38,574 bases of DNA. Source: a virus. Both the position numbers and the translations under genes were made by a program. The stretch lies in the IMG/VR virus record IMGVR_UViG_3300030104_005028, positions 10,748-49,321 of that record; one strand, 5' to 3'. Below, piece by piece: positions 23,430 through 37,748 of this stretch; position 1 is the stretch's first letter, and every line of letters begins with the position of its first letter. The notes beneath the pieces are model-generated. The model ran no database searches, was not told the DNA's origin, and was given only the letters and a program-made list of their open reading frames with translations.

Positions 23430-24286
23430 TGGCAAAACCAGCTACTAGACAACAACTCATTGATTATTCTCTCAGGAAATTAGGTGCACCTGTTCTTGAG
23501 ATAAATCTTGATGATGATCAAATTGATGATCTGGTAGATGATGCCTTACAATATTTTAATGAAAGACATTTTGATGGTGTTGAGGAGATGTTCCTTAAAC
23601 ATGAGTTTACTCAAGATGAAATTGATAGAGGAAAAGCAACTTCAGAAACTGATGCAGATGTTACTGCAGGTATTGTAACTACCACAGGTACTTCAACTGC
23701 TATAAGTGGATATGGTGCGACAACTACAAGTTTTGTAGAAAATTCTAACTTTATTCAAGTTCCTGATTCAGTTATTGGTATAGAAAAAATATTCAAATTT
23801 GATAGCAGTTCCATCTCTGGTGGAATGTTTAGTATTAAATATCAATTATTTTTAAATGACTTATACTATTTTAACTCTGTTGAACTTCTTCAATTTTCAA
23901 TGGTTAAGAGTTATCTGGAGGATATTGATTTCTTGTTAACACCAGATAAACAAATACGTTTTAATAAGAAACAGAATCGTCTATATCTTGATATGGATTG
24001 GAATTCTGTTAGAGAAGGTGATTTTATAGTAATAGATTGTCAAAGAATATTAGATCCTGATGATTTTACAAAAGTCTATAATGATATGTTTCTTAAGATG
24101 TATTTGACTGCAACTATGAAACGTCAGTGGGGACAAAATTTAATTAAATTTAGAGGAGTTAAATTACCCGGTGGATTAGAATTAAATGGTAGAGAAATAT
24201 ATGAAGATGGTCAAAGAGACTTAGAATTTGCATTAACCAAGTTAAAAGAGGAATACGAATTACCACCTCTTGACTTTATTGGGTGA
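23429..24286 (+). CDS. gp13: neck protein gp13
   Basis: This 285-residue homologue of T4 gp13 (309 residues) belongs to the neck that closes the filled head and accepts the tail. The N-terminal block ATRQQLIDYSLRKLGAPV, then INLDDDQIDDLVDDALQYF, is the signature of the family. The middle (residues about 70-105) has a Thr/Gly-rich insertion. Later blocks include YFNSVELLQF and VDMDWNSV-like segments (here LDMDWNSVREGDF) and the helix KMYLTATMKRQWGQNL. The start overlaps the previous stop by one base. gp14 follows with overlapping reading frames, as expected for the gp13-gp14 complex. Confidence 0.93.
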   Translation: MAKPATRQQLIDYSLRKLGAPVLEINLDDDQIDDLVDDALQYFNERHFDGVEEMFLKHEFTQDEIDRGKATSETDADVTAGIVTTTGTSTAISGYGATTTSFVENSNFIQVPDSVIGIEKIFKFDSSSISGGMFSIKYQLFLNDLYYFNSVELLQFSMVKSYLEDIDFLLTPDKQIRFNKKQNRLYLDMDWNSVREGDFIVIDCQRILDPDDFTKVYNDMFLKMYLTATMKRQWGQNLIKFRGVKLPGGLELNGREIYEDGQRDLEFALTKLKEEYELPPLDFIG

Positions 24287-24291
24287 TATGT

Positions 24292-25911
24292 ATGGCTTTA
24301 AATCCGTTTTTTCTACAAGGATCTCAAGGTGAACAAAGGTTAGTTCAGGATATCATCAATGAACAACTGAAGATTTATGGTGTCGAAGTAACATATATTC
24401 CTAGAAAATTTGTAAATAAAAGATCTATTATAGAGGAAGTTGAGTCATCAAAGTTTGATGATAATTTTTTGATTGAAGCATATTTGAATACCTATGAAGG
24501 ATATTCAGGTGCTGGCGATGTAATGACTAAGTTTGGTGTAAGTTTGAGAGATGAAGTTACATTAACAATATCAAGAGAAAGGTTTGAAGATTTTATAGCA
24601 CCTTTTATGGATGCAGATGATTATGAATTATCAACAAGACCTCGTGAAGGTGACCTAGTTTATTTTCCACTAGGAGGTAGATTATTTGAAGTAAAGTTTG
24701 TAGAACATGAAAAACCTTTCTATCAGTTAGGTAAGAATTATGTTTATGAACTTCAATGTGAACTATTTGAATATGAGGATGAAATTATTGATACTGGTAT
24801 TCAGGCAATTGATGAGGAAATTGAGGACGTAGGATTCATAACGACATTGAATCTTGTTGGATCGGGACAAACTGCAACAGCCACGGCATCTATCTCTGCT
24901 TCATCAGGATATCTAAGTGGTATTACAGTATTAAATGATGGTAGTGGTTACACATCAACTCCAACAGTTGCTATAGGCACTAATAGGGTCGCTGGTGGTG
25001 CAAACGCATCTGCAGTTGCAATAACGACTGAAAGAGCAGGTGTATTCTCCGTTAAAGAAATTGTTATTATAAATCCCGGATCTGGATATACATTTGCTCC
25101 AAGTATAAGAATTATAGGTGGTGGAGGTAGTGGTGCAATTGCAACATGTGGAATTGTAACGGTTGGACAAGGTGTAATAGGACTAAACATAACTGATGAA
25201 GGAACTGGATACACAACTACACCATCAGTTACGATTGCAGGGCCTGGAATTGGAACTACTGCTACTGCCACCGCAATTATTAATGCAGGAAATACTCAAT
25301 TACAATCTTTCCGTATTACGAATCCCGGTTCTGGATATACCTCCACACCATCAGTTACTATTGGTGACCCAAATATTATTATTGGTCGTGGTAATTTCTT
25401 AATCAATGATCTCGTTATTGGTGAAACATCACTTACAGAGGCAAGAGTTAAATCATGGGATGTAGATACGAAGATTCTCAAAGTATCAAATGTCGGTATT
25501 GGAACAACTATCAGTGGATTCATTCCCGGAGAAAGTATTAGATCAAATACAGTATTCTTTAATACTACAAGCACTAAATCTGCCACTGTTGGAGTTAGCA
25601 CATCAATAATTGGAATCAATACTTCAAGTATTGTGGTTGGTGCTGCAATTTCAGCAGTCGATAATGTTATAGGTGCTGGAGGAACAGTTTTATCTATTGG
25701 TGCAGGAACAGTAACCCTGTCACAAAGAACTGTAAATTCAAGTTCTACAACTGTAAATGTATCCTTCGGAACCACTCAATTTGTCACTTATAACATACGT
25801 GAATATGATCAGAGAGATATATATGATGAATACACTGAAAATGACGAATTTGAAATTGAAGCAGATTCTATCATTGATTTTGCAGAAACTAATCCATTTG
25901 GTACTTACTAA
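24292..25911 (+). CDS. gp14: neck protein gp14 with a large repeat insertion
   Basis: I chose ATG 24292 over the GTG nine bases earlier (24283) because the family N-terminus is MALNPFFLQGSQGEQRL. The result is 539 residues against 256 in T4. The N-terminal 180 residues are gp14-like (VEVTYIPRKFV, LEAYLN-like helix, REGDLVYFPLGGRLFEV, YELQCELFEYEDE). The C-terminus (DEFEIEADSIIDFAETNPFG) is also gp14-like. Between them (about 24835-25790) lie roughly 320 residues of beta modules: four GxGYTxxP repeats (24922-25370), a GExI module and a VxVG-type module. gp14 works with gp13 at the head-tail neck, so the insert probably projects from the neck. Its stop shares a base with the gp15 start. Confidence 0.92.
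   Translation: MALNPFFLQGSQGEQRLVQDIINEQLKIYGVEVTYIPRKFVNKRSIIEEVESSKFDDNFLIEAYLNTYEGYSGAGDVMTKFGVSLRDEVTLTISRERFEDFIAPFMDADDYELSTRPREGDLVYFPLGGRLFEVKFVEHEKPFYQLGKNYVYELQCELFEYEDEIIDTGIQAIDEEIEDVGFITTLNLVGSGQTATATASISASSGYLSGITVLNDGSGYTSTPTVAIGTNRVAGGANASAVAITTERAGVFSVKEIVIINPGSGYTFAPSIRIIGGGGSGAIATCGIVTVGQGVIGLNITDEGTGYTTTPSVTIAGPGIGTTATATAIINAGNTQLQSFRITNPGSGYTSTPSVTIGDPNIIIGRGNFLINDLVIGETSLTEARVKSWDVDTKILKVSNVGIGTTISGFIPGESIRSNTVFFNTTSTKSATVGVSTSIIGINTSSIVVGAAISAVDNVIGAGGTVLSIGAGTVTLSQRTVNSSSTTVNVSFGTTQFVTYNIREYDQRDIYDEYTENDEFEIEADSIIDFAETNPFGTY
24922..25370 (+). repeat. four GxGYTxxPxV modules inside gp14
   Basis: Four copies of a roughly 45-residue unit with cores DGSGYTSTPTV, NPGSGYTFAPSI, EGTGYTTTPSV and NPGSGYTSTPSV start near 24922, 25060, 25180 and 25306. 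Each core is followed by a Gly/Ala/Thr-rich strand. The same core occurs in the giant protein, gp8 and the DUF4815 protein. Confidence 0.85.
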
Positions 25912-26957
25912 TGTTAGGCACATATTTTTATCACGAAATACTTAGAAAAACAGTCATTTCATTTGGAACACTGTTTAATGATATTCATATTCGACATAAA
26001 GACAACGCTGGAAAATCTATTAGTGATATGAAAGTGGCATTGGCATATGGCCCAATGCAGAAGTTTTTGGCAAGAATTGAACAACAACCAGAATTAAATA
26101 GAGCAACACAAATTAGTTTACCAAGAATGTCATTTGAGATGACGACATTGGTTTATGATCCAACAAGAAAATCAAGTGTTACTCAAACATTCAAGGCATC
26201 TGACGGAACGAATTTAAGAAAAGTATTCATGCCTGTGCCTTACAATATAGGATTTGAATTAAATATACTTGTTAAATTAAACGATGATGGTTTACAAATT
26301 TTAGAGCAAATATTACCGTTCTTTCAACCATCATTCAATCTATCAATAGATTTGATAAAAGTAATCGGAGAAAAAAGAGATATAAGTGTTGTGTTGGATA
26401 ATATTGGATTCCAAGATGATTATGAGGGAGATTTTGCTACCAGAAGAGCACTAATATATACACTCAATTTTACTGCAAAAACATTCTTATTTGGCCCAGT
26501 CGCAGATACTCCAGAAGGACTCATCAAAAAAGTTCAGGTGGATTATCATACAAATATGGACAGAGAGAATGCAAGGAGAGAACTCAGGTATGTTACAACT
26601 CCACAAGCAGTTAAGGACTATGACAATGATAATACTGCTGTATTAACATTTGAACTGAATAAATCAGCAACTAATTTCACAGTTAATGATTCCTCACAGT
26701 TTGCTGTAAATGATCGTATTGTAATTGATAGTGAGGTAATGTTAATTAAGGAAATACCTAATGCAACATCATTGAATGTCAGGAGAGGATATAGTAAAAC
26801 AATTAAGGCAACACATCCTGAAAATACAAAGATTAATAAATTAACTACAGCAGACGATAATCTAATTGATGTTGGAGATGATTTCGGATTTAGTGAAACA
26901 TCAAGCATCTTTACAGATTCACTTTCATTTAATCCTGCTACAAGGACAGACTCATGA
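25911..26957 (+). CDS. gp15: tail sheath stabilizer / tail terminator gp15
   Basis: This 348-residue homologue of T4 gp15 (272 residues) caps the tail tube and sheath and joins tail to neck. Diagnostic blocks parallel T4: an initial G-x-YFYHE segment, SFGTLFNDIHIRH, LPRMSFEM, FELNILVKLNDDGLQILEQI then LPFFQPSFNLSI, and FLFGPVADTPEGLIKK. The C-terminal addition (about residues 244-314, 26640-26850) is a beta module with VNDRIVIDSEVMLI, LNVRRGYSKTIKATH and a trailing ENTKI. The same type of module occurs in the giant and DUF4815 proteins. The end overlaps the gp16 start by 4 bases (ATGA). Confidence 0.93.
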   Translation: MLGTYFYHEILRKTVISFGTLFNDIHIRHKDNAGKSISDMKVALAYGPMQKFLARIEQQPELNRATQISLPRMSFEMTTLVYDPTRKSSVTQTFKASDGTNLRKVFMPVPYNIGFELNILVKLNDDGLQILEQILPFFQPSFNLSIDLIKVIGEKRDISVVLDNIGFQDDYEGDFATRRALIYTLNFTAKTFLFGPVADTPEGLIKKVQVDYHTNMDRENARRELRYVTTPQAVKDYDNDNTAVLTFELNKSATNFTVNDSSQFAVNDRIVIDSEVMLIKEIPNATSLNVRRGYSKTIKATHPENTKINKLTTADDNLIDVGDDFGFSETSSIFTDSLSFNPATRTDS

Positions 26958-27403
26958 TGAACACAGATTTTGGTAGTATTGAAAAATCACTTAACGTAGA
27001 AACTGATATTATACAAGAGGGTGGATGTGCAAGAAAGAGTGATTCTGCAACTGATATTACACCTAAGAAGGATGATGTTGAAAAAGACTATAATTATACA
27101 AGAGGTCAATTATATTCATTGATTGAAAAAGGACAAGAAGCAATTAATGGAATTATGGAACTTGCTGGAGAGAGTGCGAGTCCAAGAGCATATGAAGTTG
27201 CAGGCCAATTAATTAAATCTGTTGCTGATAGCACAGATAAACTAATGGACTTACAGAAAAAGGTCAAAGAAATTGATGAGGATATTACTAAAACACAAGG
27301 AAATGTCACCAATAATGCTTTGTTTGTGGGGTCTACGACAGAACTCTCAAAGTTACTAAAGAAAGGTTTTCTAAATAATAATGATACAAAAACTGCAGAA
27401 TAA
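26954..27403 (+). CDS. gp16: small terminase subunit gp16
   Basis: This is a 149-residue protein; T4 gp16 is 164. gp16 forms rings that recognise DNA and stimulate the large terminase during packaging. The conserved central helix pair is present: YTRGQLYSLIEKGQEAI, then SPRAYEVAGQLIKSVADST and KLMDLQKKVKEI. The C-terminal block NNALFVGSTTELSKLLKK also matches the family. Translation may start at the overlapping ATG 26954 or at the second ATG at 26957. The upstream overlap suggests coupling with gp15. Its stop shares one base with the next start, and gp17 follows after one intervening gene. Confidence 0.92.
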   Translation: MMNTDFGSIEKSLNVETDIIQEGGCARKSDSATDITPKKDDVEKDYNYTRGQLYSLIEKGQEAINGIMELAGESASPRAYEVAGQLIKSVADSTDKLMDLQKKVKEIDEDITKTQGNVTNNALFVGSTTELSKLLKKGFLNNNDTKTAE

Positions 27404-29619
27404 TGAAATCCTGTAAAAAAGGATACTACTATTGCAACACTGAGAAAAAATGTATGCCCATTCCTGATGGACATACTGTTCGTGATGATGGTTTTCTTAT
27501 GAAGGAAACTAAGGATAGTGATCATGAACCAGAGATGATTCGTAATCAACTCAAAACTGCAGGAAGAGCATCCAAACGCATTGTAAAACATTCTCGTAGT
27601 AAGAAAAATTTCAAAGCGTGGGTTCAATCAAAGATAACTAAAGCATCTGATTACTTAGATACTGCTGCAGACTATCTTGATAGTAAAGAGGTAAACGAAG
27701 AAGGTCTTCGAGCATGGTTTGGAAAGTCAAGTGGTACAACCAAATCTGGTAGAAAAGTTAAAGGTTGGGTTCAAGTGGGTGGAAAGTATGACGGGAAACC
27801 ATGTGCTCGCCAGCCCGGACAAAATACAACTCCTAAATGCACTTCATCATCGAAGAGAGCATCTATGAGTAAAAAAGAGAGAGATAGTGCAAGAAGAAGA
27901 AAAGTAGCAAAAGACCCTAATCAACCACAAAAATCAAGTGCAGCAGCACCAACAATGGTTTCAACTGATCCTAAGAAAAAAATGAAAGAACAATACACAA
28001 CTCTACCTCTACGACTAGAGGTTCCCAAGAGTCAAAATGATTTTAAACAAGGTTTGATGTTCCGTGAAAGTTTAAAAGAAAATAGCGGTATGCTATTTGT
28101 ATTTGATCGTATTGCACAACAGTCATTCCATATGACTGAGACAACAATACCACTTGAAGTTGCTTTCGTTAGAAAGGATGGGATTATTGAAAGTATAAAA
28201 TCATTAGAACCAAAGGATTATGATCCTGTGTATTCTGATGGTGCTATTGAGTTGGCAATTGAAGTAAATCGTGGTTGGTTCGCAGAGAATAATGTAGAAG
28301 AAGGAGATGAGTTGGTTGTAGAGTATATTATTGAAGATCCAAAAGACAAATATCGTTCAGAGACAGGAACAATATACGATATTTTAAGTGAGGTAAAAGA
28401 TAAGAAAGGAAAGAGTAGTGGATCAAAAGATGCTTGCTATCATAAGGTTAAGTCAAGATATTCGGTATGGCCAAGTGCATATGCATCTGGTGCATTAGTT
28501 AAGTGTCGTAAAGTCGGTGCTGCAAACTGGGGTAATAAATCAGAAGGATTAGAAATACAAAATTCAGATGGTAAAACAATCGCAGGTGTGGTTGATATAA
28601 TTGGGCCTGATAACTTACAACCAATTACAAATGAAAATGGTGTTTGGAAGGGAACTAAGCAGGTTGAAGAGGGTTTGTTAGTTAAAGCTGCTCAAGGTGT
28701 AGAATCTGGTGTTAGGAAGTTTAACAAACTTGATGATAGAGTTAATAGAGCAGTTGCTAGGAAAACTAAAAAAGTTGGAAAAAAGGCATTAAAACTTGTA
28801 GGTAAAGGTGTTAAAAAAGTTGCAGCTGCAACAGCTAGAGGAGCAGCAGGTGCAGTTGGTGGTGCTTTAAAGGGTGCAGCAAAAGGTGCTTACAAAGGTA
28901 TAAAAAAAGGATTAAGCGAAGAGGAAATTATTGAAAAGCATGATACTCCAAGCAATGTGAAGAAGATTGCTAAAGAATTGGATAAGGCAGTTGAAATGCA
29001 TAAGAGTCAGGCAAAACGTTTGAGAAAAGCAGGTATCTCGGAGGATGTTCCTAGAGGCCCCGGTGGTAATCCAATTAGAATAAAGGATAGGATTAAGGCA
29101 GCAAAAGGTCAGATTCCTCATGGATATCAATTGAAAAAGGAAGAAGTTGAATTAGATGAGAAGTGTTGGGCTGGATATGAGAAGAAAGGTATGAAGACTA
29201 TGTTTGGTAAGAGATATCCAAACTGTGTGAAGAAAAAGGTCTCAGAATCAGTTTACAACTGGAGAGAGGAAGTTCTTAATGATATTGAAAAAAACATTTC
29301 TGATGATGAGGGTAGGGATTACGTAAAAAAGATTGAAGAGGGCAAGAGCCCTGCTTGGCAAAGAAAAGAAGGAAAAAGTGAATCAGGTGGATTGAATGCA
29401 AAAGGTGTTGCATCATATCGTGCAGCAAATCCCGGTTCTAAGTTGAAGACTGCTGTGACAACTAAACCATCTAAGTTGAAGAAAGGATCAAAATCAGCAA
29501 ACAGAAGAAAGTCATTCTGTGCTAGAATGAAAGGTATGAAGAAAAGACTTACATCAGCAAAAACAGCAAGAGATCCAGATTCAAGAATTAATAAGTCACT
29601 TCGTAAGTGGAACTGCTGA
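27403..29619 (+). CDS. mosaic Lys-rich protein with DUF192 domain, between the terminase genes
   Basis: This 738-residue, strongly basic protein has at least six segments. Residues 1-35 hold a CxxxxYYYC...C cluster. Residues 100-190 hold a GLRAWFGKS block, a GWVQVGGKYDGKPCARQPGQ block with cysteines 134 and 146, then basic K/R stretches. Residues about 200-308 match DUF192 (GLMFRESL, GMLFVFD, IPLEVAFV, IELAIEVNRGWF). Residues 344-376 are ACYHKVKSRYSVWPSAYASG then ALVKCRKVG. Residues 440-503 are Ala/Lys/Gly-rich and histone-H1-like. Residues 588-611 are CWAGYEKKGMKTMFGKRYPN then CVKK. Residues 648-738 are a K/R-rich tail ending SFCARMKGMKKRL and RINKSLRKWNC. I recall the Cys-Lys modules from T4-like marine phages and large DNA viruses. 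DNA binding is inferred. It directly follows gp16. Confidence 0.8.
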   Translation: MKSCKKGYYYCNTEKKCMPIPDGHTVRDDGFLMKETKDSDHEPEMIRNQLKTAGRASKRIVKHSRSKKNFKAWVQSKITKASDYLDTAADYLDSKEVNEEGLRAWFGKSSGTTKSGRKVKGWVQVGGKYDGKPCARQPGQNTTPKCTSSSKRASMSKKERDSARRRKVAKDPNQPQKSSAAAPTMVSTDPKKKMKEQYTTLPLRLEVPKSQNDFKQGLMFRESLKENSGMLFVFDRIAQQSFHMTETTIPLEVAFVRKDGIIESIKSLEPKDYDPVYSDGAIELAIEVNRGWFAENNVEEGDELVVEYIIEDPKDKYRSETGTIYDILSEVKDKKGKSSGSKDACYHKVKSRYSVWPSAYASGALVKCRKVGAANWGNKSEGLEIQNSDGKTIAGVVDIIGPDNLQPITNENGVWKGTKQVEEGLLVKAAQGVESGVRKFNKLDDRVNRAVARKTKKVGKKALKLVGKGVKKVAAATARGAAGAVGGALKGAAKGAYKGIKKGLSEEEIIEKHDTPSNVKKIAKELDKAVEMHKSQAKRLRKAGISEDVPRGPGGNPIRIKDRIKAAKGQIPHGYQLKKEEVELDEKCWAGYEKKGMKTMFGKRYPNCVKKKVSESVYNWREEVLNDIEKNISDDEGRDYVKKIEEGKSPAWQRKEGKSESGGLNAKGVASYRAANPGSKLKTAVTTKPSKLKKGSKSANRRKSFCARMKGMKKRLTSAKTARDPDSRINKSLRKWNC

Positions 29620-29626
29620 TTAAATT

Positions 29627-31273
29627 ATGTCTGATAATGTTTACCTTGGAAATCCGAATCTAAAGAAAGCTAATACAGCGATCAACTTTACAGAAGATCA
29701 AGTTGTTGAGTTTGTTCGCTGTAAAGAAGATCCCGTTTATTTTGCAAGAAAGTATATACAAATAGTATCTCTTGATGAGGGTCTTGTTCCTTTTGATTTA
29801 TATCCTTTCCAAGAAAAATTAATACAAAATTTCCACGAAAGTAGATTTAATATCTGTAAAATGCCACGTCAGACTGGTAAATCTACCACTTGTGTGTCAT
29901 ACTTGTTGCATTACGCAGTTTTTAATGATAATGTCAACATTGCTATTTTGGCGAACAAAGCGTCCACTGCTAGAGATTTACTTGGCAGATTGCAACTTGC
30001 ATATGAAAATTTGCCTAGATGGATGCAACAAGGTATAATTGCATGGAATAAAGGATCTTTAGAATTAGAAAATGGATCAAAAATTTCGGCAAACTCTACT
30101 TCTTCATCTGCTGTCCGAGGTGGATCCTATAATGTCATCTTTCTTGACGAGTTCGCTTTCATCCCGAATCACATTGCTGATGACTTCTTTGCCTCTGTTT
30201 ATCCTACTATCTCGTCTGGACAAAGTACTAAGGTAATTATTGTATCTACCCCAAGGGGTATGAATCATTTTTATCGGATGTGGCATGATGCTGAAAGAGG
30301 TAAGAATGAATATGTTCCAACTGATGTTCATTGGTCAGAAGTTCCGGGCAGAGATCAAGTCTGGAAAGAACAAACAATTGCAAACACATCAGAAGCACAA
30401 TTTAAGGTTGAGTTTGAATGTGAATTTTTAGGATCTGTTAATACACTTATTAATCCTGCAAAATTAAAAAATTTAGTTTATGAAGAACCAAAGACTAAAA
30501 ATGCTGGTTTAGATATACATGAGGATCCCATAAAGGATCATAATTATCTAATAACAGTGGATGTGGCTCGTGGATTAGGAAATGATTATTCAGCATTTAT
30601 TGTCTTTGATATTACAAATTATCCATATAATGTCGTAGCAAAATATAAAAATAATGAAATAAAACCCATGCTATTTCCTAACATCATACATGATGTGGCA
30701 AAAGGATATAATGAGGCATATCTACTAATAGAAGTAAATGATATTGGAGATCAAGTTGCAAGTATTCTTCAATATGATCTTGAATATGAAAATTTGTTAA
30801 TGGCAACTATGAGAGGTCGCAACGGTCAAATTGTTGGAACTGGTTTTTCTGGAAAGAAAACTCAACTTGGTGTAAGAACAACTTCTGCTGTTAAAAAATT
30901 AGGATGCTCCAATTTAAAAACATTACTAGAAGATGATAAAATAATAGTTAAAGATTATGAGGTAATATCAGAACTTACAACATTTTCCCAAAAAGCAAAT
31001 TCATTTGAGGCTGAGGAGGGGTGTAATGATGATTTAGCAATGTGTCTTGTAATATTTGCTTGGTTAGTTGCACAGGATTATTTCAAAGAAATGACTGATA
31101 ATGATGTAAGAAAAAGATTATATGAGGAACAAAGGAATCAAATAGAGCAGGATATGGCTCCATTTGGATTCATTAATGATGGATTAGATGATGCAAGTTT
31201 TGTGGATGAATCTGGTGATGTATGGAAAGTTGATGAGTATGGTGATAGATCATACATGTGGGATTATATGTAA
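29627..31273 (+). CDS. gp17: large terminase subunit gp17 (ATPase-nuclease)
   Basis: At 548 residues (T4 gp17 is 610), this is the packaging motor that translocates DNA into the prohead through the portal and cuts the concatemer. The ATPase domain shows Walker A PRQTGKST (residues 80-87), Walker B VIFLDE with D174 and E175, and the STPRG motif (207-211). The C-terminal RNase H-fold nuclease shows TVDVARG with D312, LLIEVND with E369 and CNDDLAM with D468/D469, the expected acidic triad positions. All key residues are present and I see no intein or frameshift. It begins 7 bases after the mosaic protein, with no obvious strong ribosome site in the short gap. Confidence 0.97.
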   Translation: MSDNVYLGNPNLKKANTAINFTEDQVVEFVRCKEDPVYFARKYIQIVSLDEGLVPFDLYPFQEKLIQNFHESRFNICKMPRQTGKSTTCVSYLLHYAVFNDNVNIAILANKASTARDLLGRLQLAYENLPRWMQQGIIAWNKGSLELENGSKISANSTSSSAVRGGSYNVIFLDEFAFIPNHIADDFFASVYPTISSGQSTKVIIVSTPRGMNHFYRMWHDAERGKNEYVPTDVHWSEVPGRDQVWKEQTIANTSEAQFKVEFECEFLGSVNTLINPAKLKNLVYEEPKTKNAGLDIHEDPIKDHNYLITVDVARGLGNDYSAFIVFDITNYPYNVVAKYKNNEIKPMLFPNIIHDVAKGYNEAYLLIEVNDIGDQVASILQYDLEYENLLMATMRGRNGQIVGTGFSGKKTQLGVRTTSAVKKLGCSNLKTLLEDDKIIVKDYEVISELTTFSQKANSFEAEEGCNDDLAMCLVIFAWLVAQDYFKEMTDNDVRKRLYEEQRNQIEQDMAPFGFINDGLDDASFVDESGDVWKVDEYGDRSYMWDYM

Positions 31274-31328: not shown

Positions 31329-31505
31329 GTGGACTGGGATATAGAAGTTAAACTATCTAATCTAAAACAAATGAACATCATTTATCAAGAACACATAGAA
31401 ATCTTAGAAAAGGAAAATGATGAAATGAAAAGTGAGATTATTTTTCTTAAAAAACAATTAGAATATAAATCATTAGGAAAGCCTGATTCTGATGGAATTG
31501 AGTGA
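31329..31505 (+). CDS. 58-residue coiled-coil protein with GTG start
   Basis: The frame runs from GTG 31329 to TGA 31503-31505, with an in-frame stop nine bases before the GTG, so the gene cannot extend further upstream. The product begins MDWDIEVKLSNLKQM and continues as a highly charged helix with heptad spacing (HIEILEKENDEMKSEIIFLK). The ATG at 31324 is out of frame and closes at once. An internal ATG at 31371 is the alternative start. A GAAAG about 9-10 bases before the GTG could serve as a ribosome site. The 3' end overlaps the Nfu gene by 14 bases. I know no function for it. It fills an otherwise empty 218-base gap, which supports it being real. Confidence 0.6.
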   Translation: MDWDIEVKLSNLKQMNIIYQEHIEILEKENDEMKSEIIFLKKQLEYKSLGKPDSDGIE

Positions 31506-31797
31506 AGATGAATTAAATCAATATAATTATTTGAAAAGGCAACATTATTTGGCGACACATATGGAATTAACTGAAGAAAATGTAATTAGAGTATTAGAAG
31601 AACTCTTACCTTACATAGAAGCGGATGGTGGATGGTTGGAGTTTGTAGAAATAGAGCATGAAACAAATTTTGTTAAAGTAAGATTAGGTGGTGCATGTTC
31701 TACTTGTGCAATGAGTGCTATTACACTAAAGCAAGGTATAGAAAGTAAATTGATGCATGAGATTCCTGATTGCTATGGAGTAATTCAAGTTTTATAA
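31492..31797 (+). CDS. nfu: Nfu/NifU C-terminal-domain protein (Fe-S cluster scaffold)
   Basis: This 101-residue protein contains the NifU C-terminal domain: ENVIRVLEELLPYIEADGGW, then VRLGGACSTCAMSAITLKQG with the conserved CxxC (GGACSTC), and a terminal IPDCYGVIQVL. In cells this domain assembles [4Fe-4S] clusters as a bridged dimer and passes them to target proteins. Residues 1-23 precede the domain. I kept ATG 31492 because AGGAAAG lies about nine bases upstream, while the internal Met24 has no visible ribosome site. It is a metabolic-type gene embedded in a structural cassette and overlaps its neighbours on both sides. A host Fe-S supporting role is inferred. Confidence 0.88.
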   Translation: MELSEDELNQYNYLKRQHYLATHMELTEENVIRVLEELLPYIEADGGWLEFVEIEHETNFVKVRLGGACSTCAMSAITLKQGIESKLMHEIPDCYGVIQVL

Positions 31798-37094: not shown

Positions 37095-37748
37095 ATGAAA
37101 CTAATCACAGAAGAAGTCTCTAAAGTTAAATTTATAACTGAGGGAAAAGGTGCTAAAAAGAAGATGTACATTGAAGGTGTCTTCTTGCAAGGCGACCTAA
37201 AAAATCGTAATGGCAGAATGTATCCTATTAATACTCTTTCAAAAGAGGTTGGTAGATACAATGAGGCATTTGTTCAGAAAGGTAGAGCACTTGGTGAACT
37301 TGGACATCCCGAAGGCCCAACTGTAAACCTAGATCGAGTATCTCATAAAATTACATCACTTCGTCGAGAAGGTAATAACTTTATTGGTAAGGCACAACTC
37401 TTAGAAACACCAATGGGTAAGATTGCAAAATCTCTCATATCTGAAGGTGTTACCCTCGGAGTCTCGTCTCGTGGAGTTGGTTCTTTAAAAGAAGATCATG
37501 CATCTGGATGTAAAGTCGTAGGTGAAGATTTTATGTTAGCAACTGCTGCTGACATTGTTGCTGATCCATCAGCACCTGATGCATTTGTTTCTGGAATTAT
37601 GGAAGGAAAGGAATGGATTTGGGATGGAGGAATTCTCCGTGAACAACTTGCAGAAAGAACTCAAAAGAGAATTAATACACTCGTTGATCAAAAAAGCCTT
37701 GAAGAGCATAAATTAAGTCTTTTCAATGATTTTTTATCAAATCTTTAA
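37095..37748 (+). CDS. gp21: prohead protease gp21
   Basis: This 217-residue serine protease of the T4 prohead protease family processes the scaffold, core and capsid proteins during head maturation. The core fold blocks are present: YIEGVFLQGDLKNRNGRMYP, the LGELGHPEG block with candidate catalytic His71, and LGVSSRGVGS with candidate catalytic Ser124/Ser125. The AADIVADPSAPDAFVSG block near residue 151 closes the domain. The length matches T4 gp21 (212 residues). Its substrates are probably the gp22 and gp67-like proteins encoded nearby and the capsid protein expected beyond the right edge. Confidence 0.95.
   Translation: MKLITEEVSKVKFITEGKGAKKKMYIEGVFLQGDLKNRNGRMYPINTLSKEVGRYNEAFVQKGRALGELGHPEGPTVNLDRVSHKITSLRREGNNFIGKAQLLETPMGKIAKSLISEGVTLGVSSRGVGSLKEDHASGCKVVGEDFMLATAADIVADPSAPDAFVSGIMEGKEWIWDGGILREQLAERTQKRINTLVDQKSLEEHKLSLFNDFLSNL

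Follow-up and report, generated by a model that had tools for sequence, protein, structure and literature searches.

Our analysis showed that the open reading frame between the terminase genes of this phage encodes a chain of small modules, and it is probably a late polyprotein of the prohead core that contains head-internal peptides, is processed by gp21 and has a DUF192 domain as one of its cargoes. This reading is based on the order of the modules, the position of the gene, motif enrichment at module boundaries, capsid-targeting sequences (CTS) on solo copies of the modules, the presence of a protease gene, and published virion lists. The hot-spot character of the interval and the T4-GC119 family were known before; the gp21-processed polyprotein of packaged head peptides is what we propose here.

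A modular protein between gp16 and gp17

The 738-aa ORF (27403..29619) lies on the plus strand of the window, by which we mean the whole 38,574-nt stretch analysed, as do its modules, its predicted cleavage sites and the gp16, gp17 and gp21 genes; the phage is known from its contig alone. The ATG start shares one base with the stop codon of gp16 (terminase small subunit, 26954..27403; Pfam DNA_Packaging 4.9e-7, phrog_445 3.3e-53) in the sequence TAATG at 27401-27405, and the ORF stops 7 bases short of the ATG at 29627 of gp17 (terminase large subunit, 29627..31273; Pfam Terminase_6N/6C 5.9e-21 and 9.1e-15), confirming the arrangement given in a preliminary description of this DNA. Homology (phrog_727, E 5.5e-114) and synteny place the protein in the PHROG_727 / T4-GC119 family, here with DUF192 and DUF6321, and its tail matches several further PHROGs of unknown function. 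The ORF had no significant match in NCBIfam, PADLOC or Rfam, and a PDB sequence search found solved relatives for DUF192 alone, Pin1 matches at residues 55-110 being discarded as weak (E 0.1-0.44). Self-comparison and a window-wide search found no further copies of the modules outside the ORF, and the 49.3-kb viral contig of the source record holds no second DUF6321. Elsewhere in the window, a NifU-like protein is encoded at 31492-31797, between gp17 and gp18 (Pfam E 1.9e-21), and a gp14-like neck protein at 24283-25911 is interrupted at its centre by a long insert, which PHROG matches liken to repeats of virion fibre and structural proteins.

Eleven segments of the protein were modelled as module HMMs. 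Module A (27403..27507, residues 1-35, CKKGYYYC..., three Cys; 70 HMM relatives) contains strands in the structure model, with a pLDDT of about 77, and is followed by module B (27520..27684, residues 40-94, EPEMI...WVQSKITKASDYLDTAADYLD; 37 relatives), which the model predicts to be helical. The basic module C (27700..27936, residues 100-178, GLRAWFGK...KPCARQPGQ...PKC..., two Cys; 84 relatives) occurs elsewhere both as solo copies and as copies with a CTS. Beyond the DUF192 module (27991..28335, residues 197-311) come module E (28393..28548, residues 331-382, KDACYHKVKSRYSVWPSAYASGALVKCRKVGAANWG, two Cys; 87 relatives) and a basic Ala/Lys/Gly-rich stretch (28672..28920, residues 424-506; pI 11.0, charge +17), which is flanked by VEE423 and LSE506 and has close HMM relatives in few loci. 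A linker (28921..29160, residues 507-586) with a helical segment H (HDTPSNVKKIAKELDKAVEMHKSQAKRLRKAGISE), the HMM of which matches at varying positions, leads to module I (29161..29241, residues 587-613, KCWAGYEKKGMKTMFGKRYPNCVKKKV, two Cys, basic; 84 relatives), also present in S-CREM2 ORF160 and S-SZBM1_139, both of them virion-detected. Next to it, YNWREEVL (29254..29277, residues 618-625) is a degenerate copy of a WR box, roughly [FYHS]xWRx[DE]LxE, and misses the strict pattern; in relatives the box was found 28 times, against 0.1 in shuffles, and often at the start of a module. The chain ends in module K (29341..29616, residues 647-738, two Cys, pI 11.4), a full-length member of DUF6321 (PF19846; match at residues 657-736, E 1e-17, 65 bits against a cut-off of 28.5, full length 1-72), a domain that is often a solo gene elsewhere, in some cases behind a CTS.

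All the elements named in the preliminary description (Cys/Lys modules, DUF192, an Ala/Lys/Gly stretch and an Arg/Lys-rich tail, which is DUF6321) are thus present, and the profile search that it suggested for the Cys-Lys segments found the relatives of A, C, E and I counted above. Two of its characterisations had to be narrowed. The likeness of the Ala/Lys/Gly stretch to histone H1 holds for composition alone, and homology was dropped because residues 424-506 have no Pfam match. Strong basicity holds for the whole chain (pI 9.8, net charge about +61, 11 Cys, computed from the sequence), the Cys modules, the Ala/Lys stretch and the tail, but not for the DUF192 section, which is acidic. The products of the predicted cuts would accordingly range from pI 9.2 to 11.4 for the Cys-bearing and Ala/Lys pieces, with the DUF192 piece at pI 4.4.

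The module order A-(B)-C-DUF192-E-...-I-...-K is well conserved across loci, the modules are far better conserved than the linkers, and in several loci the chain is split into separate genes between modules. A structure model of the full chain was poor overall (pLDDT 54) and was used just to separate folded from floppy parts; low-confidence stretches fall at or beside most predicted sites, and the modelled chain looks like beads on a string.

The DUF192 module has no Cys and is well supported by Pfam (PF02643, residues 204-305; E 5e-24, 84.7 bits against a cut-off of 27) and by an AlphaFold2 model (pLDDT 84; TM 0.70-0.74 to 3PJY/3M7A). It has the same domain and fold as DUF192 / UPF0127 proteins (3M7A, 3PJY), but unlike these at large it is embedded in a putative phage polyprotein and has no signal peptide. 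The module is missing from the S-SCSM1 and P-RSM4 chains, and it is rare among cultured relatives (five cyanophage records, representing three phages), so that most cultured T4-GC119 / PHROG_727 members differ from the window protein in having no DUF192; it looks like an optional, exchangeable cargo with a conserved fold. S-SM2, Bellamy and SynMITS9220M01 are cultured cyanophages that have it. A match in a viral structure library joins DUF192 to a cytidyltransferase-like protein, and a cytidyltransferase-like enzyme was detected in S-CREM2 and S-SZBM1 virions. In the DUF192 literature we found no assigned function and nothing accounting for a role in phages.

Distribution and genomic position of the family

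Searching with tblastn, we found relatives of the protein in 513 phage records, mostly of Synechococcus and Prochlorococcus phages; by module, E occurs in 365 phage records, C in 355 and K (DUF6321) in 518. In S-SM2, P-RSM4 and S-SM1 the homologue is annotated T4-GC119, a cyanomyovirus 'hypothetical protein', and lies downstream of gp16 within the gp16-gp17 interval, which had been recognised as a hot spot of additional genes in cyanomyoviruses (PMC3037559). The fetched loci hold 82 DUF192-bearing ORFs; of the 46 loci that could be assessed, 42 have gp16 directly upstream, and gp17 comes next after an identical 7-bp gap in 40. Because gp16 and gp17 flank the homologue in most assessable loci, this interval is usually the normal place of PHROG_727 / T4-GC119 in cyanophages, and the window protein resembles the family in place as well as in module order. 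The preliminary description had regarded the gene as an unusual insertion between normally adjacent partners, which these loci contradict; the expression with the packaging motor to which it appealed is ordinary late-operon synteny and by itself no evidence.

The position, the 7-bp spacing ahead of gp17 and the basicity of the protein could also indicate an accessory of the packaging motor, acting with gp16 and gp17 outside the virion. However, the homologous gene precedes gp16 in P-SSM2, relatives are present in virions (see below), and in P-SSM4, S-SSM7 and S-CREM2 modules are also found far from the terminase genes; because of these distant modules we dropped the idea of a terminase accessory, which we consider very improbable.

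In the literature found, in a search thin on subscription journals, no function had been proposed for the family, and the literature search gave no match for DUF6321. DUF6321 matches also occur in 55 contigs (L105-L159) labelled as many different bacteria and archaea, for example L116, Nonlabens xiamenensis NZ_RMVE01000006.1; most of these are MAG contigs, and they seem to hold phage sequence that was misbinned, not genes of the hosts. In the T7-like cyanophage P-SCSP1k (L089:5863-6117), an 84-aa solo DUF6321 gene is flanked by the genes of the major capsid protein and of tail tubular gp11, and the passages found in the P-SCSP1u cryo-EM paper say nothing on this short gene of its relative.

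Predicted gp21 sites at module boundaries

In T4, gp21 cuts after L/I-X-E (PMC9026906). The window encodes a gp21 homologue, a prohead protease of the Peptidase_S77 type (37095..37748; Pfam E 3e-34), 7.5 kb downstream of the ORF, and we propose this as the processing enzyme. When the linkers were compared side by side, hydrophobic-x-Glu, (L/I/V)xE, was seen directly before the basic modules, so that both features of a T4-type gp21 substrate, (L/I)-X-E at boundaries and an encoded gp21, are present. The predicted site VNE99 before module C (27691..27699) has Glu and a hydrophobic P3 in 40/40 alignment rows, although a cut at NEE100|G is also possible there. LDE586 before module I (29152..29160) is likewise kept in 40/40 rows, LSE330 before module E (28384..28392) in all 15 rows having a residue there, and IEE646 before module K (29332..29340) in 10/37 rows at the exact column. 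MKE196 before DUF192 (27982..27990) is a weak candidate, with a hydrophobic P3 in 13/40 rows.

Compared with shuffled 45-residue upstream stretches, after a similarity filter that reduces relatedness but does not remove it, xxE precedes module I in 32 of 33 independent upstream contexts (6.7 expected), module E in 13 of 13 (7.2 expected), module K in 12 of 16 (3.7 expected) and module C in 8 of 11 (2.4 expected), with 0/500 shuffles in each case; the boundary test was not significant for module A (2 contexts) and DUF192 (2/5 contexts). A second dataset, whose loci come from GTDB contigs and from other IMG/VR phages, had similar counts for C (26/28, 6.3 expected), I (19/22, 5.1 expected) and K (23/34, 9.5 expected), again with 0/500 shuffles. 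At P3, L or I is found at 61% of boundary sites but at 14% of the remaining linker Glu; the wider set I, L, V or M is found at 243/319 against 1314/4691, a comparison between related rows in which the p-value is indicative only. The search for gp21 cleavage between modules that the preliminary description called for has thus yielded LxE at module boundaries in two datasets, which fits the predicted cleavage. Near their N-termini the S-SCSM1 and S-CREM2 major capsid proteins carry FLAE|APT and LLTE|APT, which we take to match the T4 gp23 site.

Since xxE is conserved inside the DUF192 fold too (E222, E246, E287, E295), a cut cannot be assigned from the motif alone. The weakest step of the polyprotein reading is the release of DUF192 as a separate piece, because neither its boundary nor that of A gave a significant result. 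The xxE motifs could, alternatively, be the conserved edges of folded modules, with the protein remaining uncut as a multidomain structural component of the neck, tail or outer capsid. The gene does lie among tail and neck genes, some homologue records carry the annotation 'structural protein', and virion detection leaves the place in the particle undefined. We nevertheless consider this unlikely, given that four unrelated modules have the same motif at their start, that genes are split between modules and linkers are floppy in the model, and that solo copies are without the motif in protease-less phages and have T4-type targeting peptides in others.

Solo modules and capsid-targeting N-termini

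Other phages encode the same modules in short genes, many with a T4-type capsid-targeting N-terminus directly before the module (MKTFKQYLEE|KSPAWQ, MLTFQEFITE|ATPAWQ, MKSFKEFLDE|SAAWQ, MKTFKQHLGE|DLRKWF), and one gene of two modules reads MKSFKNFIAE|RCWPGYK...LDE|ASAAWQ; since the queries included targeting N-termini, the fraction found is biased, but not the existence and variety of such genes. Other solo copies begin right at the module (MAKTAAWQRKEG, MSLRKWVQEKWV). Peptidase_S77 was present in 10/10 tested cyanomyoviruses, against 0/4 complete phages with bare modules, and in 6/6 targeting-sequence contigs longer than 75 kb. At one locus (L145) a complete MKSFKTYLSE stands in the middle of the chain, which is what a fusion of solo genes would produce. 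The window protein itself starts MKSCKKGYYYC and so has no N-terminal CTS of the kind that marks T4-type internal head proteins; this and its merely degenerate WR box count against the polyprotein reading. Apart from a T4 review, the literature search found nothing linking cyanophages with capsid targeting.

Large proteins at L167:2996-5539 and L168:4132-6282 have a cytidylyltransferase-like GRxNPPTxGH motif and are fused either to module C or to C, E and K together; the protein at L167 starts MRFSDFLQE. In L320, neighbouring genes of the S-SZBM1 gp16-gp17 interval (191 and 192) start with the capsid-targeting-like peptides MKSFKSFLSE and MKTFKQYITE, and both are missing from the published virion list.

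Module-bearing proteins in published virion proteomes

Four of five module-bearing proteins of S-CREM2, S-SCSM1 and S-SZBM1 appear in published virion lists, against 0.9 expected (p 0.004); mass spectrometry of virions cannot tell head proteins from tail proteins, and contaminants may be present in CsCl virions. In S-CREM2 (Table 3 of PMC10665884), ORF137, which lies between gp16 and gp17 and has DUF6321, and ORF160 (C-I-E) were both detected; they were the only module-bearing ORFs found in a scan that covered all but about 4.5 kb (100001-104499). ORF29, the sole module-bearing ORF of S-SCSM1, is annotated 'virion protein', and the virion proteins of that phage were identified through mass spectrometry (PMC9602691). 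Of the S-SZBM1 genes, 139 (module I and an Ala/Lys-rich stretch) is in the virion list (PMC9146016), from which 192, with a targeting sequence, a Cys-rich segment and DUF6321, is missing. An N-terminal targeting-like motif, picked by eye after seeing examples so that the p-values are exploratory, marks nine proteins of the three proteomes, six of them in virions against 1.7 expected (p 0.002); S-SZBM1_192 and two further proteins are missing from the lists, a point against the polyprotein reading. With targeting sequences on solo copies and module-bearing homologues in virion proteomes, the earlier suggestion of a packaged protein is largely supported.

The S-CREM2 hits of the targeting-like motif include a SAM hydrolase, a kinase and a cytidylyltransferase, and such segments may be how cyanophage enzymes get loaded into the head. 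Virion-detected proteins with targeting-like N-terminal segments, such as MKNFSSFLTE, comprise a SAM hydrolase, a kinase, a cytidylyltransferase/NMNAT and Cas9, at S-CREM2 genes 6, 14, 136 and 154 (L097, L088), S-SCSM1 NMNAT ORF91 (L101) and S-SZBM1_140 (L321); in S-CREM2 gene 12 (L097, L088) the segment is at residue 19.

The same cleavage motif would also serve a core scaffold of the kind formed by T4 gp22, gp67 and gp68, one that gp21 cuts, that is for the most part driven out of the prohead and that has no role after assembly; T4 core proteins are indeed cut by gp21 into several pieces, which mostly leave the head (PMC9026906; PMC9958956). Such a scaffold appears quite improbable here: relatives are detected in mature virions, the modules are much more conserved than the linkers, and solo modules with targeting peptides resemble internal proteins, which are kept.

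Discussion

The T4 internal proteins IPI, IPII, IPIII and Alt have a capsid targeting sequence and are cleaved by gp21 at L/I-X-E (PMC9026906). In common with them, the window protein is basic and late and has (L/I)xE before the mature part, and the MKTFKQYLEE-type N-termini of its solo relatives are closely similar to the T4 targeting sequence. Unlike them, it has many modules and several sites in one chain and begins without a targeting peptide, and we detected no sequence similarity between its modules and the T4 internal proteins. A single chain of many domains is also characteristic of the polyvalent proteins of phages and conjugative elements, which are thought to be packaged and processed (PMC5512222). 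Those carry their own peptidase and known effector domains, whereas here the modules are unlike theirs and gp21 would cut in trans; Pfam, NCBIfam and PADLOC showed no embedded peptidase or effector domain in the window protein.

In the polyprotein reading that we favour, one chain of independent small modules on variable linkers would co-assemble into the prohead, where the gp21 homologue would cut after (L/I/V)-x-E at the linker ends, as the sequence motifs suggest. The pieces set free in the head would be a number of small, basic proteins with paired Cys, a peptide rich in Ala and Lys, and the DUF192 domain, which is acidic. They would most likely remain with the packaged DNA and, by analogy with the internal proteins of T4, might be ejected along with it. 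Cleavage, location in the head as opposed to elsewhere in the virion, contact with DNA and ejection are steps that we infer, the association with DNA from basicity only. A more far-reaching version, to which we give even chances, is a fused T4 internal-protein system in marine T4-like phages: a modular, exchangeable polyprotein whose Cys-paired basic mini-proteins, freed by gp21 in the prohead, would be delivered together with DUF192 into the host, while the same code would load cytidylyltransferase/NMNAT, SAM hydrolase and a kinase into the heads of cyanophages.

With the family and its modules in more than 500 phage records, mostly of cyanophages, a very common cyanophage gene would gain an explanation. 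With a targeting and cleavage code that can be read, head cargo could be predicted from many so far unexplained late genes of marine T4-like phages; the code would also hint at the way in which enzymes get into cyanophage heads and would make the dose of protein delivered at infection testable.
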